Assembly: GCA_024742305.1 (NCBI GenBank)
Contig: JANSYQ010000015.1
Span: 1 to 64,000 of the forward strand
Reading direction: 5' to 3'
Length of the DNA: 64,000 bases
Source: a bacterium
GTDB taxonomy: Bacteria > Bacteroidota > Bacteroidia > Flavobacteriales_D > Crocinitomicaceae
The notes beneath the pieces were generated by a model, which did not search any database, was not told where the DNA came from, and worked only from the letters and a program-made list of their open reading frames with translations. The position numbers were made by a program, and so were the translations under genes. Shown piece by piece: positions 7,875 to 13,628 of this stretch; the stretch's first letter is position 1, and every line of letters begins with the position of its first letter.

Positions 7875-8378
7875 ATGAAGTTGGTGACTATTCTCGTTGT
7901 TTTGTTGGGTCTTGTTGTGAGCTGCGGGGAGAACGATAAAATGAAGTCTGAAAAGGATGCGGGTGCAATTCACCAAGTAATTCAGGATTCGACCAAAATT
8001 GAAGGCTATCAGCCGGAGCACCCGATTCGGTTTCCTCATGCGGTTCATGCCGAAATTGATTGCAAATACTGTCACTACACAGGGAATGAGTCGAAAACAG
8101 CAAGTATTCCCTCTATAAACGTGTGCATGAACTGCCACCGAACTAGAGATGCAGAAACCGTAGAAACAATTGAAGAATTGTATCGGTCCTATGATTCTGC
8201 GCTCCTTGATAATGATGAATTAAGTAAACGCAAGCAAATTCAGTGGAAGAAAGTGGAAGAATTACCTGATTCTGTATTCTATAATCATGAAAGCAAGTAT
8301 TTTAGTGAGTATCACGAAAGACTTTTGAATTACAAAAGCAATGGATCATCAAGACAGTGCAGCGATTGTCATTACTAA
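7875..8378 (+). CDS. Triheme c-type cytochrome lipoprotein, ActA-like
   Basis: The 167-residue lipoprotein (LVVSCG, Cys17) has three haem-attachment motifs: C63KYCH, C84MNCH and C162SDCH. The stretch from FPHAVHAEIDCKYCHYTG through SINVCMNCH, followed by QIQWKKVEELPDSVFYNH, resembles the start of the pentahaem ActA subunit of alternative complex III. No other complex III or oxidase gene is in the window, and the protein is far shorter than ActA. It is probably a periplasm-facing electron-transfer lipoprotein; the partner is unknown. Its 3' end overlaps the convergent metZ by 4 bp. Confidence 0.8.
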   Translation: MKLVTILVVLLGLVVSCGENDKMKSEKDAGAIHQVIQDSTKIEGYQPEHPIRFPHAVHAEIDCKYCHYTGNESKTASIPSINVCMNCHRTRDAETVETIEELYRSYDSALLDNDELSKRKQIQWKKVEELPDSVFYNHESKYFSEYHERLLNYKSNGSSRQCSDCHY

Positions 8379-9589
8379 GGTTTCTCCAACGCTCCTTCAA
8401 CCGCACCCGCACTCACAACTACATTTAGCGCCCCTTCCAAATCTTCCCATATGTCATCGACGTGCTCAAGCCCAATGGAAAGTCGGACCAAACCGTCAGA
8501 TATACCTACATCTGCGCGCTGTTCGGGCGTTAATTTAGAATGGGTCGTTGACGCCGGGTGTGTTGCAATACTCCGGACATCACCCAAATTGGCTGTAAGC
8601 GAGAACATTTCAAGCGCATCCAGGAATTTCCTCCCACCATTCAGTCCAGATTTTAGTTGAAACGTAACGATTCCGCCCCCCGATTTCATTTGTTTTTTCG
8701 CAATCTCGAAATGCGGATGGGATGGTAAAAACGGATACTTTACTGAATCTACAGCATCATGTTGCTGGAGCCGTTTGGCAATTTCCAAGGCATTATCACA
8801 ATGTCGATCCATACGAACGTGCAAGGTCTCCAAGGATTTACTCAATGTCCATGCGTTAAACGGACTAATTGCTGGCCCCGAGTGGCGTGCAAATGCCTTC
8901 ACTTTGCTGATTATTTCCTCGCTCGCTAGAATCGCGCCACCCAATGTTCTTCCTTGTCCATCAATGTATTTTGTTGCGGAGTGAATGGATACATGGGCAC
9001 CAAATTTCAGTGGCTGTTGGAGATATGGCGTAGCAAAACAATTATCTACGGCTAAAATCAGGTTTTTCGCTTTGGCAATTTCACCTAACTTTTCTAGGTC
9101 GATGATGTCCAATGCCGGATTGCTAGGGGTTTCCACGTAGATAATCTTCGTGTTTACCTTCACAGCGTCGGCAAAACCTTCGTAATCATCAAAGTCGACA
9201 TAAGTTGTTTCAATATTCCATTTCGGGAAGATTTCGGTGAACAATTTGTGCGTTGAACCGAACACAGAACGGCTCGAAACAATGTGGTCTCCTGAGCTTA
9301 ACATCGCACCAAAAAACGAGAATACAGCCGCCATTCCAGTGGCTGTCGCCCAACCGGATTCTGCTCCTTCCAACGCTGCCAATTTGTTGATCAATTCCTC
9401 CACGTTTGGATTGGCATATCGCGAGTAAACATGCCCTTCCTTCTCCTCTGCAAATTGCGAGCGCATGTCTTCCGCATCCTCGAAAACATAACTACTCGTT
9501 AGGTAGATTGGAACGGAGTGCTCGTTATTCTTCGAGCGCTCATGTTGCAATCGAATGGCTTGTGTTTCTGCGTTTTTAAATGGTTTCAT
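8375..9589 (-). CDS. metZ: O-acylhomoserine sulfhydrylase (Cys/Met metabolism PLP enzyme)
   Basis: This PLP enzyme condenses O-acylhomoserine with sulfide to give homocysteine in the cytosol. The 404-residue protein shows the family signatures SSYVFEDAEDM, YSRYANPNVE, YVETPSNPALDIIDL and SATKYIDGQGR, where Lys207 is the PLP Schiff-base lysine. The MetZ assignment over cystathionine gamma-synthase rests partly on the operon, where MetX supplies O-acetylhomoserine and no beta-lyase follows. The ATG at 9589 is preferred to the TTG at 9604. The gene starts 14 nt inside osmC and is the last of the operon. Confidence 0.9.
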   Translation of the reverse strand: MKPFKNAETQAIRLQHERSKNNEHSVPIYLTSSYVFEDAEDMRSQFAEEKEGHVYSRYANPNVEELINKLAALEGAESGWATATGMAAVFSFFGAMLSSGDHIVSSRSVFGSTHKLFTEIFPKWNIETTYVDFDDYEGFADAVKVNTKIIYVETPSNPALDIIDLEKLGEIAKAKNLILAVDNCFATPYLQQPLKFGAHVSIHSATKYIDGQGRTLGGAILASEEIISKVKAFARHSGPAISPFNAWTLSKSLETLHVRMDRHCDNALEIAKRLQQHDAVDSVKYPFLPSHPHFEIAKKQMKSGGGIVTFQLKSGLNGGRKFLDALEMFSLTANLGDVRSIATHPASTTHSKLTPEQRADVGISDGLVRLSIGLEHVDDIWEDLEGALNVVVSAGAVEGALEKP

Positions 9590-9995
9590 TTTGTATGATT
9601 TCAAAAGTGATGTCGATAGATTCCTTTAATGAGGCACTCACCGAACAATATTTGTCAATGACGAGTTGAATGTTTTTCGTCAATCGGTTCGTGTCAATCT
9701 CAGGAGCCAATTCAAACTTTAAATGGATATTTTCGAAAGGAGAAGGTGTTCCTTCCACTCTATTTGCTTCAATTTCAATGTTGAATTTATCCGAATCTAT
9801 GCGTTGTTTTTCAAGAATGAGTGTAAGGTCAATAGCAATACATCCCGCCACTCCAGCAGCTACCAGCTCCATGGGACGCAATCCTTTATCGGTGCCGCCA
9901 ATATTCTTTGCTGCATCAATTGTCAGCTGGGCTCCAGCTTCATTCTCCACTTCAAAATGGAAAGGCTTTTCTACTCTTTTAAACGCTAATTTCAT
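9576..9995 (-). CDS. OsmC/Ohr family protein
   Basis: The 139-residue protein has the OsmC fold signatures, with the two redox cysteines in AAGVAGCIAIDL (Cys52) and DKYCSVS (Cys117). Family members are thiol peroxidases or handle reactive sulfur. It begins inside the YeeE-type gene (ATGA overlap) and runs 14 nt into metZ, so its translation is tied to sulfur genes on both sides. A role in handling imported reduced or persulfide sulfur, rather than general peroxide defence, is inferred from that context. The ATG at 9995 gives the normal family length. Confidence 0.9.
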   Translation of the reverse strand: MKLAFKRVEKPFHFEVENEAGAQLTIDAAKNIGGTDKGLRPMELVAAGVAGCIAIDLTLILEKQRIDSDKFNIEIEANRVEGTPSPFENIHLKFELAPEIDTNRLTKNIQLVIDKYCSVSASLKESIDITFEIIQNETI

Positions 9996-10405
9996 TTCGG
10001 TAATTTGTTTTTGATTACACCAAAAATAAGTGTTCCAATCAAGGCTCCGGCTATGCTTACCAAACCGATTTGCCAATGAAGTCCGGCAACAATAAATAAG
10101 GGCGCTGTACATGCTCCAGTTACACCCCAGCCCAGTCCGAAAAACAAACCACCCACAACATTTCCTGTTGGTTGGACAGGCTTTTTAATTGGAGCAGCAT
10201 CATTTCCGCGAATACTTTTCAGTTGGAACTTTTTGATCACCCATACACCAAGGGCACCCGTTGCAATGGCGGAACCGAGCAGTCCGTACATGTGGAAAGA
10301 TTCAAAATGAAACATTTCATTAATTCGGTTCCAATGAAACGCTTGAGAAGCAATCAAAACGGTGCCAAAACCAATTCCCAGAAGTAGGTAGATTGCTGCT
10401 TTCAT
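9992..10405 (-). CDS. YeeE/YedE-type transporter half (DUF6691-like)
   Basis: The 137-residue membrane protein has about four transmembrane segments and the conserved cysteine motif GWGVTGACTAPLF. YeeE/YedE proteins conduct thiosulfate or other sulfur species through a cysteine relay. Here the usual ten-helix protein is split into two half-size genes, this one being the second. It overlaps the preceding half gene by 4 nt (ATGA) and osmC by 4 nt, suggesting that all three products are made in step. Confidence 0.88.
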   Translation of the reverse strand: MKAAIYLLLGIGFGTVLIASQAFHWNRINEMFHFESFHMYGLLGSAIATGALGVWVIKKFQLKSIRGNDAAPIKKPVQPTGNVVGGLFFGLGWGVTGACTAPLFIVAGLHWQIGLVSIAGALIGTLIFGVIKNKLPK

Positions 10406-10887
10406 GTCGTAAAAATTAAAGGAACAATGAAGTGCGTGGCGATCAAACCGCCCACAAAGAAAAACACCGTTGTAATTAAAGAACTGAGTGCGAATTGTGA
10501 ATTCCCCATGATGCAGTGTCCTGCTGTACAGCCGTTTGCATATCGCGCGCCGAATCCGATGAAAATAGAACCGACAAAGAATATGGGAAGGAATGCATTG
10601 TCATACGCTTGAAAATAGGCTTCGCCTTCCACATTTGTACTTGGCGGAATTCCAAAATCGGTGGTGTTGAAAATCGCTACTGACGCAATGAGGATTCCCA
10701 TAACGAAAAACACCTGCCAATAATCTTTCTCTCGATTGTATTTAAAGTAGTCTACTTTTGGCAGAAGAAACGATCCCGCCACTCGAAAAGATGAGGAAAC
10801 ACCTAATTGTTTCTCTCGAATTAAGAGAAGTAATGGGACAGTTAACCCGATCAACGGTCCAGCGATATACCAAGCTAAAGGTTCCAT
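10402..10887 (-). CDS. YeeE/YedE-type sulfur transporter half
   Basis: The 161-residue membrane protein has about four to five helices and the signature GARYANGCTAGHCIMG, which carries the two cysteines expected to relay sulfur. It pairs with the 137-residue half gene that follows. It starts one base after the hom stop codon. Substrate (thiosulfate, sulfide or persulfide) cannot be read from the sequence. Confidence 0.9.
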   Translation of the reverse strand: MEPLAWYIAGPLIGLTVPLLLLIREKQLGVSSSFRVAGSFLLPKVDYFKYNREKDYWQVFFVMGILIASVAIFNTTDFGIPPSTNVEGEAYFQAYDNAFLPIFFVGSIFIGFGARYANGCTAGHCIMGNSQFALSSLITTVFFFVGGLIATHFIVPLIFTT

Positions 10888-10888
10888 A

Positions 10889-12130
10889 TTATGCTAATTG
10901 AAGTGATTCAGAAACTTCGTCAAATACGGCTTCCAGCTCCTTTCTGCTCAACAAATCTTCAGGAAGTACGATCAGTGAAAGGTTTTCACGCTTGTTTGGA
11001 TCGAGTTTTTGGAAATCTTCAAAATGAATCCAACCCGTTTGGAATGCATAGTCTTTACTTTGGTACACCTCGTCCACAGAAATAAAAGGTATTTCATCCA
11101 AAACCTCCGGATAGCGAGATCCTGCGTACACCTTCAAGTAGAAATCACTACTGAATTCTGCCTCATTGTCCTCAGACTTACGATACTCGTATTTGTAATC
11201 GAACTTCAACGCAGAAATATCAGAAAGCACGGCACTTGCAGTAGGATGACTTCCGGCACCTTTACCGATGAACAGTTGTTTGTCAGAGAAGAGTCCCTCA
11301 ACAATTACTGCGTTGAACTCGTTGTTTACTTCGTAAGCGAAGTGCGTCGAATCAATAAACTGAGGCGCGACAAATCCTACTACATTTCCACCAATTTTCT
11401 CGGCACGCGAAAGCAATTTGATTCGGTAGCCTTTTTCTAGGGCAAACTTGACATCTTGCGGCTGAATGTTTTGAATTCCGATGTTGAGTAACTTTTTGGG
11501 TTCAACACTCAATCCAAAGGTATGCTTGAGCAAGATTGCCAACTTGAACTTAGAATCGTAGCCTTGTACATCCAAGGTTGGATCGGCCTCTGCAAAACCC
11601 AATTCCTGTGCATCTTTTAATGCCGTTGCGTAATCAATTCCCTCGTTTGATTTTGTTAAGATATAGTTGGTGGTACCATTGACAATTCCTTGAATGGAAC
11701 TCAAAGAATCGTTGTTGTAGTACTCTTCCAAGTTACGAAGGATAGGAATGGATCCCGCCACTGCTCCTTCATACAGCAGAGAAACGCCGTGCTTTTTCGA
11801 TAATTCGAGTAATTCTGGTAAATGCTCTGCCACCAGTTTTTTGTTCGCTGTAACGACATCTTTCCCCAACTGAATGGCACTTTTGACAATCTCATAGGCG
11901 GCTTCGCTATCGTCTATCAGCTCGACTACCAAGTTGATTTCAGGGTCCTTGAGCACCACGTCACGGCTGAAGGAAAAATTTTCCTCAGGAATAGAGCGTT
12001 TCTTGCCTGGGTTTTTGACTACAATTGACTTTATGTGTGCGTCGATCAATTTGGATTGATTCAATACTTCGTACAGACCGGAACCTACACATCCGAATCC
12101 GATTAATCCTATTGTTAATTTCTTACTCAT
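10889..12130 (-). CDS. hom: Homoserine dehydrogenase
   Basis: The enzyme reduces aspartate semialdehyde to homoserine, the branch precursor for methionine and threonine. The 413-residue protein begins with the Rossmann motif GLIGFGCVGSG (residues 8-18). It contains VTANKKLVAEH, YEGAVAGSIPILRNL, VNGTTNYIL and LGFAEADPTLDVQGYDSKFK, all classic for the family. It is a monofunctional enzyme without a fused aspartate kinase. I do not see a clear C-terminal ACT domain, so feedback control may lie in the leader RNA instead. It follows metX by 51 nt. Confidence 0.95.
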   Translation of the reverse strand: MSKKLTIGLIGFGCVGSGLYEVLNQSKLIDAHIKSIVVKNPGKKRSIPEENFSFSRDVVLKDPEINLVVELIDDSEAAYEIVKSAIQLGKDVVTANKKLVAEHLPELLELSKKHGVSLLYEGAVAGSIPILRNLEEYYNNDSLSSIQGIVNGTTNYILTKSNEGIDYATALKDAQELGFAEADPTLDVQGYDSKFKLAILLKHTFGLSVEPKKLLNIGIQNIQPQDVKFALEKGYRIKLLSRAEKIGGNVVGFVAPQFIDSTHFAYEVNNEFNAVIVEGLFSDKQLFIGKGAGSHPTASAVLSDISALKFDYKYEYRKSEDNEAEFSSDFYLKVYAGSRYPEVLDEIPFISVDEVYQSKDYAFQTGWIHFEDFQKLDPNKRENLSLIVLPEDLLSRKELEAVFDEVSESLQLA

Positions 12131-12181: not shown

Positions 12182-13258
12182 TCAATCGAGTCGTTGTATT
12201 AATTCGTGTTTGCGCACTGTGGAGCGGAATACCGTCGGTTTGTGCTTTTTAAAATTGTTGAAGAGAAAATCTTCGAGAATGACAGACAGTTTCTTTGTTT
12301 CGACAAGGAATCCATCGTGACCGTAGCTGCTTGAAATTTCCGCATACTCAGCTCCGGGAATATGATGTGCCAAGAATTTTTGCTCTGATGGCGGGAACAA
12401 CTGATCGGAACCAATTCCTAACACTATCGTCTTTGCACGAATTTGTTTCAAGGCATCGGCATGACTTCTTCGACCTCGGCTCACATTATGACTGTCCATC
12501 ATTTTTGTTAGACTGACATAAGAATATGCGTTGAATCGACGGGCCAATTTTTCACCTTGATATTGCTGATACCCTGACGCCCGAAAATGATCGAGTTTGT
12601 CTTCGTCTGTTTCGGATTGCGTTTGTCGATAAATTGTTGGAGAGCGATAACTCAGTAGAGCGATACTTCGAGCTGCCTTCAAGCCCTGTTTCCCACCATT
12701 GATATTTCCCTTTCCGTAAGTGGAATCTGCTTGTATGGCCAAACGTTGACTTTCGTTGAATGCGATTCCGTACGGAGAATGTTGTGCATTGGTAGCGATG
12801 AGAGCTACATGTTCGAAAACCTCCGGCTGTTCGATGCTCCACTCTATCGCATGCTGCCCACCCAAGGAGCCTCCAATGAGCAGGTACACCTTTTCAATCC
12901 CCAAAGCTTTTCTTGTCGCTTCAAAAGCTCGTTGCGCATCTTTGGCGGTTACTAGAGGGAATTTATCAAGCAATGGACGCTTATTTTTCAAGGGTGTTGT
13001 TGGCCCGGTGGAACCGTAGCATGAACCGGGTGCATTCACACAAATGATGAAATACTTTTTGGGATCGAAAAGTTGATTTGCCCCGAACAAACCGTCCCAC
13101 CAATCGAGGACGTTTGTGTTTGCTGTGAGGGCATGACAGACCCAAATAACGTTGTCTTTTCGCGAATTCAGCTTTCCGAAAGTTTGATAGGAAAGCGTTA
13201 ATTCGGGTATATTTTCTCCGCCTTCCAAGCGGAAATTTTCTAAGGTAATTAATGGCAT
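12182..13258 (-). CDS. metX: Homoserine O-acetyltransferase (alpha/beta hydrolase fold)
   Basis: MetX acetylates homoserine with acetyl-CoA, the first committed step to methionine. The 358-residue protein shows CHALTANTNVLDWWDGLFG, the nucleophile elbow GGSLGGQ (Ser131) and the rest of the triad in GSDQLFPP (Asp285) and YGHDGFL (His314). It is the first gene of the methionine/sulfur operon. Its 5' leader (13259 to about 13622) carries a SAM riboswitch and a poly-cysteine leader ORF. Some family members use succinyl-CoA; the specificity here is inferred from family norms. Confidence 0.95.
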   Translation of the reverse strand: MPLITLENFRLEGGENIPELTLSYQTFGKLNSRKDNVIWVCHALTANTNVLDWWDGLFGANQLFDPKKYFIICVNAPGSCYGSTGPTTPLKNKRPLLDKFPLVTAKDAQRAFEATRKALGIEKVYLLIGGSLGGQHAIEWSIEQPEVFEHVALIATNAQHSPYGIAFNESQRLAIQADSTYGKGNINGGKQGLKAARSIALLSYRSPTIYRQTQSETDEDKLDHFRASGYQQYQGEKLARRFNAYSYVSLTKMMDSHNVSRGRRSHADALKQIRAKTIVLGIGSDQLFPPSEQKFLAHHIPGAEYAEISSSYGHDGFLVETKKLSVILEDFLFNNFKKHKPTVFRSTVRKHELIQRLD

Positions 13259-13273
13259 AACGATGTAATTTTG

Positions 13274-13295
13274 GTTGGCACCTCAACGAGGCAAC
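13274..13295 (-). promoter_or_regulatory. Hairpin just upstream of the metX start
   Basis: In the transcript GUUG (from 13295) pairs with CAAC (to 13274), and CCUC pairs with GAGG around a GUU loop. The hairpin ends 15 nt before the metX ATG and could limit ribosome access. This is a by-eye fold, not an energy calculation. Confidence 0.4.
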
Positions 13296-13305
13296 ACGAT
13301 CAAAT

Positions 13306-13321
13306 TCCGATAATTATCGGA
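13306..13321 (-). promoter_or_regulatory. 16-nt perfect palindrome between leader ORF and metX
   Basis: TCCGATAATTATCGGA is a perfect palindrome, 20 nt after the leader ORF stop. As RNA it would form a 6-bp stem with an AAUU loop. No U tract follows, so I do not call it a terminator. It could be an attenuator stem or a protein-binding site. Confidence 0.45.
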
Positions 13322-13341
13322 GCGATAAAATGGGGCGGGGA

Positions 13342-13458
13342 TTACTGCTGCATGAGCATTCGACAGCAACAACAACAGCAACAACAAGAATGCGTTGTTT
13401 CGAACGATTGATTTCGTTTGGACTGAATTCCCCTAAAATTGATTTGAACGTTTTTCAT
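13342..13458 (-). CDS. Poly-cysteine leader peptide (8 consecutive Cys codons)
   Basis: This 38-codon ORF lies between the SAM riboswitch and metX. It reads MKNVQINFRG..., then THS, eight cysteines (residues 25-32, codons TGT TGT TGC TGT TGT TGT TGC TGT), then RMLMQQ and TAA. An in-frame TGA at 13467-13465 lies just before the ATG, so the frame is closed on both sides. Runs of one amino acid in a short ORF ahead of its own pathway genes are the hallmark of ribosome-stalling attenuators. Poly-Cys upstream ORFs that respond to cysteine are known in mycobacteria. Function here is inferred; a chance (TGY)n microsatellite is the alternative. Confidence 0.8.
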   Translation of the reverse strand: MKNVQINFRGIQSKRNQSFETTHSCCCCCCCCRMLMQQ

Positions 13459-13466
13459 ATCTATTC

Positions 13467-13598
13467 ATTTATATTCTTCCGACACTATTGTCGAAATCAG
13501 GAATTGGCACCGGTTTTCCAATACTGATATTTCTATCAGCACTTAAAGTTGGTTGCCAGAGGATCTTAGAGCCTGTCTCTCCCCTCTTCTTTATAAAT
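13467..13598 (-). promoter_or_regulatory. SAM-I (S-box) riboswitch upstream of metX
   Basis: The transcript shows the S-box core in order: P1 5' strand AUUUAUA (13598-13592), AAGAAGAGGGGAGAGACAGG, CUCUGGCAACC, a P3 hairpin CUGAUA-GAAA-UAUCAG, GGUGCCAAUUCC, and a P4 hairpin CGACA-AUAG-UGUCG. The closing strand UAUAAAU (13473-13467) pairs with the first. SAM binding normally turns expression off. Here the aptamer ends only 8 nt before the poly-Cys leader start, so SAM may act by closing off that start or by steering the downstream leader folding. Confidence 0.92.
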
Positions 13599-13628
13599 CA
13601 AGATCCACCGTCGTGGCCATTGACTGCA

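Follow-up and report, generated by a model that had tools for sequence, protein, structure and literature searches.

Some bacterial regulatory RNAs are combined with a short open reading frame (ORF), as in the mgtA and mgtC leaders of Salmonella and in the upstream ORF (uORF) of a mycobacterial B12 riboswitch. This background is covered in part by PMC3641672. Leaderless polycysteine short ORFs are described in mycobacteria (Canestrari et al. 2020, pmid 32181921, as cited in PMC13236596 and PMC9094748), and in Actinobacteria the leaders of cys genes, which precede sulfur genes, consist of a short ORF with Cys codons clustered in runs shortly before its stop codon, with no conserved intrinsic terminator (PMC1262725). 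The uORFC-8-2 motif, located before cysS in Rhodobacterales, contains a tandem-Cys uORF that was proposed to sense Cys-tRNA (PMC8632094). Among SAM-I riboswitches, that of the met operon of Xanthomonas campestris acts mainly at the level of translation and receives a second input related to amino acids (PMC7270179). For the amino-acid operons of Flavobacterium psychrophilum, leader peptides are mentioned in general terms, and the available portion of that paper contains no Cys leader behind a SAM riboswitch (PMC9723704). A search of the open-access literature returned no description of a composite of a SAM riboswitch and a Cys leader.

Here, we describe such a composite in a stretch of 64,000 nucleotides from a bacterium of the family Crocinitomicaceae (assembly GCA_024742305.1, contig JANSYQ010000015.1, positions 1 to 64,000), hereafter called the window. 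We consider it likely that the leader of its metX operon is a two-input RNA switch, in which translation of a short leader ORF would be gated by SAM and stalling of the ribosome at Met and Cys codons would raise expression of the operon.

A Cys-rich leader ORF behind a SAM-I riboswitch

The features of the locus are summarized in Table 1. The leader ORF, which encodes the 38-residue product MKNVQINFRGIQSKRNQSFETTHSCCCCCCCCRMLMQQ, extends from an ATG at positions 13458–13456 to a TAA at positions 13344–13342 of the reverse strand, with an in-frame TGA 6 nt 5΄ of the ATG and a gap of 83 nt to metX (13258). The initial annotation had reported these 38 codons, eight consecutive Cys codons among them, 83 nt before metX, and each of these details was confirmed exactly from the sequence. 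It had recognized the Cys leader itself. The adjoining SAM-I riboswitch had escaped it, as had the high share of Met codons next to the Cys codons and the occurrence of the leader outside Flavobacteriales.

Table 1. Features of the metX locus and its leader region in the window
Feature	Position	Strand	Basis or remark
SAM-I (S-box) riboswitch aptamer, GGCAACCAACTNNAAGT-core subtype	13466..13599	(-)	Rfam RF00162, 64.4 bits
P1 3΄ strand, TATAAAT	13467..13473	(-)	base-paired to ATTTATA, 13598-13592
Leader peptide ORF, 38 codons	13342..13458	(-)	ORF translation; position and Met/Cys-rich end kept in relatives
Eight Cys codons in a row	13363..13386	(-)	sequence; run kept in frame in relatives
Hairpin between leader stop and metX	13299..13326	(-)	-7.0 kcal/mol, without U-tract; not a consensus terminator
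Second short hairpin 5΄ of metX, CCTC-GTT-GAGG	13280..13292	(-)	sequence
metX, homoserine O-acetyltransferase, operon gene 1	12182..13258	(-)	NCBIfam TIGR01392, 9e-97, under curated cut-off
hom, homoserine dehydrogenase	10889..12130	(-)	PF00742, PF03447; NF004976 over cut-off
YeeE/YedE (Sulf_transp) half, C-terminal profile part	10402..10887	(-)	PF04143, 8.5e-16
YeeE/YedE (Sulf_transp) half, N-terminal profile part	9992..10405	(-)	PF04143, 2.2e-06
OsmC-like protein	9576..10112	(-)	PF02566; true start probably further in
metZ, O-succinyl/acetylhomoserine sulfhydrylase family	8375..9604	(-)	NF006003 over cut-off

In sequence and structure, the aptamer belongs to RF00162, its score of 64.4 bits exceeding the gathering threshold of 44.4 bits; the covariance model R1 of the longer SAM-I form defined below (class 2) gives 147 bits at 13455–13599, the window being one of the sequences of that model. 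By homology, the RNA is a SAM-I riboswitch, and a response to SAM is predicted. Because the 3΄ strand of P1 ends 8 nt 5΄ of the leader ATG, binding of SAM should hinder initiation of leader translation. At the 70 loci compared below, this spacing is 6–15 nt, with a mode of 8–9 nt.

The Cys codons of the window (13386–13363) read TGT TGT TGC TGT TGT TGT TGC TGT. A genome scan revealed runs of at least six TGY codons at three further places in the same genome, one of which (C23) is a Gln run on the opposite strand, and the Cys run is therefore weak proof by itself; in the other frames, it reads as Leu or Gln. Its conservation at 70 homologous loci, however, places it beyond chance.

Further along the operon, the YeeE/YedE transporter (9992–10887) is divided into two genes, of which the upstream one corresponds to the C-terminal part of PF04143.

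Conservation of the leader in related genomes

SAM-I riboswitches were found in 50 of 60 related genomes, many of which carry two copies. Two forms were distinguished: a short, high-scoring form, mostly directly 5΄ of metH, and a longer, lower-scoring form 5΄ of metX, the latter being termed class 2. The class-2 core, TCTGGCAACCAACTNNAAGT, occurs in 75 of the 240 genomes of the family, versus 3 genomes matched by a reversed-pattern control. We extracted 91 class-2 loci, of which 70, mostly from Crocinitomicaceae, have a leader ORF. The leader was defined as the first ATG at least 4 nt past P1 that opens 10–60 codons with a gene downstream, irrespective of composition, except at four loci of genus g2, for which the sequence itself guided the choice of a minimal leader (MKKRMCCC). 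The set of 70 leaves out four loci at which the operon is lost or metX is broken, and it includes some loci that are close homologues of one another.

At least three Cys codons were present among the last 16 codons at 62 of the 70 loci; the two alternative frames reached this number at 12 loci and 1 locus of the 70. Cys accounts for 31.7% and Met for 11.8% of these last 16 codons, against ~0.6% and ~0.2% of the remaining leader, and the last Cys codon lies no more than 3 codons from the stop at 65 loci. The ratio of TGT to TGC is 183:175, and in alignments of related pairs, 35 Cys codons differ synonymously, 73 are identical and 16 have changed from Cys to another residue. These results bear out the proposal of the initial annotation that a Cys leader peptide precedes a methionine/sulfur operon, together with its expectation of in-frame conservation with shifts between TGT and TGC. 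The leaders resemble known amino-acid leader peptides in that the putative regulatory codons are concentrated near the stop and upstream of the cognate biosynthetic operon. Typical ends are ..RMCSCMCCCRC, ..MRMHMCCCMCCCC, ..QMCCCCCC, ..MCCMCCCCCMC and ..MRMRCCCCMC, and in a genome matching Fluviicola taffensis (G142) the leader ends in ..LLTKMCCCCCC.

A microsatellite or chance repeat was rejected on the basis of the tests of frame, synonymous change and position. A Leu or Gln reading of the repeat was rejected as well, those frames not being conserved at the 70 loci.

The longest Cys run per leader ranges from 0 to 8 codons. Absence of the run in close relatives, which the initial annotation had named as evidence against its proposal, was observed once: in one of the two genomes closest to that of the window, G021 (metX 85% identical), a single Cys remains near the leader end. 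The leader of G018 (metX 83% identical) contains CYCCCCC. Most Cys codons are also lost at L050 (G008) and L056 (G028), with the operon intact. The Cys run can disappear while the operon stays.

RNA structure between the leader and the first gene

In the proposed switch, leader initiation would be hindered by SAM bound to the aptamer, and the leader would be translated when SAM is low. If charged Cys-tRNA or Met-tRNA is scarce, the ribosome would pause at the Met/Cys-rich end and cover RNA that may otherwise pair with a segment between the leader and the operon; release of this segment would either expose the region where translation of the first gene begins or prevent Rho-dependent termination. 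High expression would be expected when SAM and cysteine/methionine are both scarce, and intrinsic termination forms no part of the mechanism.

Structure predictions support the pairing step in part. The Cys-run segment matched its own downstream segment better than the downstream segments taken from other loci (mean rank 0.235, n = 56), whereas the N-terminal part of the leader, used as a control, did not (mean rank 0.487). At Fluviicola-type loci, a helix can form between the Met-Cys codons, AAAUGUGUUGU, and ACAACACAUUU just 5΄ of the metX ATG, the pairing varying from G-C to G-U only, and when a ribosome was simulated on the first Cys codon, the metX start became more accessible in the prediction (0.70, up from 0.47). 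At metY-type loci, one segment can be paired either by the leader end or by a downstream 3΄ arm. Because of the kinship among these loci, their independence is overstated by the counts. In the window, a ribosome on the Cys codons gave no predicted gain in metX start accessibility (0.76 to 0.74), no special complementarity was detected between the Cys run and the downstream region (z = +0.7), and the intergenic region did not fold better than shuffled sequences (z = –0.3). Across all near loci, the gain in accessibility was not significantly greater than that for a ribosome step further upstream (Wilcoxon test, P = 0.39). Consensus folding of the metY group yielded 0 pairs, and downstream structures differ by genus, without a common consensus.

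A long hairpin follows the leader stop at the metY-type loci L245, L250–L252, L260–L263, L244, L209 and L049, with GGGCC(C) near its apex and a 5΄ arm that could also pair with the last codons of the leader. In G021, a hairpin is placed like that at 13280..13292 in the window.

Rho-dependent control, by which an untranslated or promptly released leader would expose an unstructured stretch to Rho and a stalled ribosome would shield it, is a tentative and rather unlikely explanation of the leader. It would agree with the absence of intrinsic terminators above the chance level and with the presence of CCCCGCCCC after the leader stop codon in the window, and the same idea was put forward for mycobacterial Cys leaders, which also lack terminators (PMC1262725); however, the gaps of many relatives are AT-rich, without C-rich stretches.

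Classical transcription attenuation, in which a stall at the Cys codons would shift the RNA ahead of metX between an antiterminator and an intrinsic terminator, with the riboswitch as an addition, appears improbable. Hairpins are located 20–45 nt before metX at many loci of genus g1, two mutually exclusive helices can form at metY-type loci, and one locus (L049 of G035) has a hairpin with a T-rich tail. Terminators with a U-tract, however, were found at 2 of 63 near loci (1.35 expected) and 2 of 25 far loci (2.3 expected), and none was found on the coding strand of the window between the leader and metX, while the 38–42 nt gap of Fluviicola-type loci folds to nothing. Because intrinsic terminators are no commoner than expected by chance, this explanation is not supported. 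Together with the z value for intergenic folding given above, these counts do not support terminator-type attenuation at 13274–13321, the region whose folding the initial annotation had taken to change upon stalling; no terminator with a U-tract was found in that region. Assignment to the trp-type transcription attenuators was likewise rejected, given the lack of a U-tract terminator in the window and the chance-level frequency in the family.

Downstream genes and specificity of the leader

The gene behind a class-2 leader is nearly always metX (then hom), metY or hom. By contrast, the same Cys test was passed only once among the 49 SAM-I loci with a short aptamer, of which 32 have metH. Loss of the leader, or of its Cys run, is seen where no met operon follows the riboswitch, in G017, in G012 and at the second copy of G028, whereas G013, with a broken metX, still has a leader; 3 of these 4 loci therefore lack the leader or the run. 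Relic class-2 aptamers whose met operon is gone or whose metX is broken were noted at L057, L062, L060 and L058.

Where the leader is missing, in genus g2 and some loci of g37, it is metX whose ATG is located +8 to +12 nt after P1. The start position beside P1 is therefore the fixed element, which fits gating of initiation by the riboswitch at that position.

Other arrangements were also observed. In genus g2, a class-2 riboswitch is combined with the minimal leader MKKRMCCCCYEK at L230, L265 and L269 and with MKKRMCCCYYAN at L228, and the gene behind looks like an amino-acid (leucine/glutamate-type) dehydrogenase; at L264, a similar dehydrogenase-like gene follows the riboswitch without a clear leader. 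At L120, L122, L141, L149, L156 and L163, in Sphingobacteriales-like and other Bacteroidota MAGs, the Cys leader is separated from metX by a conserved ORF of ~75 codons, and two members of this group searched against Pfam gave no match.

Occurrence across Bacteroidota

The class-2 covariance model was scanned over 395 genomes of the phylum and detected further SAM-I loci; reading of the sequences behind them revealed the riboswitch-leader pair in other families of the class Bacteroidia, as did four named metX contigs. The pair occurs 5΄ of metY in Pedobacter sp. ISL-64 and Pedobacter kyungheensis (leaders ending in ..TCMCCCIQ), in Adhaeribacter aquaticus (..CCCCCISMC) and in a high-GC genus (..RMRLCCCTPCCCCC), and leaders were also found in a Cytophagaceae MAG (..KACCC), in several f14 genomes (..CMCMCCCCC) and in f19 (..CCICICCPCCC). 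Because GC-rich genomes carry the leader too, descent of a shared DNA repeat alone is disfavoured. When the loose core CTCTGGCAACCNNNNNNAAGT was used as a search pattern across the phylum, the matches were mostly noise. Genomes of the high-GC genus g82 (L310, L318, L331, L339) contain several SAM-I loci each, and short ORFs with Cys codons are found there ahead of a cysH-like and an ATP-grasp-like gene as well.

This recurrence bears on whether the riboswitch regulates alone, with the ORF as a passenger in the form of a TGY microsatellite. The variable length of the Cys run and the few intact loci without it (G021, L050, L056) would suit a passenger, but this reading is very improbable in view of the in-frame, position-specific Met/Cys enrichment at 62 of 70 loci, the balanced use of TGT and TGC with synonymous drift, the recurrence in Pedobacter, Adhaeribacter and high-GC genomes amid unrelated surrounding sequence, and the near absence at short-aptamer loci. 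That the ORF encodes a functional small peptide (e.g. thiol- or metal-binding) rather than a sensor is scarcely credible, for although the product is rich in Cys and its start codon holds a conserved place, its N-terminal part differs from genus to genus, leaders range in length from 12 to ~50 codons, and conservation is confined to the Met/Cys codons close to the stop.

Given the recurrence of the riboswitch-leader pair in many Bacteroidota, a single mRNA probably informs the cell about the supply of both SAM and cysteine/methionine. Whether a SAM-gated two-input switch is widespread in the class Bacteroidia, perhaps ancestrally, and operates free of terminators by unmasking the downstream start codon is, in our judgement, an evenly balanced question.

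Comparison with known systems

Both halves of the leader are regulators of known kinds, and their composite is, as far as we searched, undescribed in the open-access literature. If the proposal is true, many Bacteroidota read a metabolite and tRNA charging in series on one RNA for methionine synthesis. With the composite as a concrete signature, leader peptides can be sought in Bacteroidota, and attention is drawn to short ORFs of 12–50 codons in Pedobacter, Fluviicola and their relatives. The arrangement may further account for the lack of an obvious expression platform at class-2 SAM-I loci.

The mgtA and mgtC leaders and the uORF of the B12 riboswitch differ from the present case in ligand, codons, phylum and genes. 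The uORFC-8-2 motif is also different, having two Cys codons, a terminator with a U-run, cysS as its target and no riboswitch (PMC8632094). The SAM-I riboswitch of X. campestris shares with the proposed switch a second input, although that input is uncharged initiator tRNA binding the expression platform, with no leader peptide (PMC7270179). Like the leaders of mycobacteria and other Actinobacteria, the leader described here has a Cys run near the stop of a short ORF, sulfur genes downstream and no conserved intrinsic terminator. The mycobacterial ORFs, however, are leaderless and precede cys operons, and none is reported behind a riboswitch in the available portions of the sources; the present ORF, by contrast, has a full SAM-I aptamer 5΄ of its ATG, contains Met codons in addition to Cys codons and precedes methionine genes.
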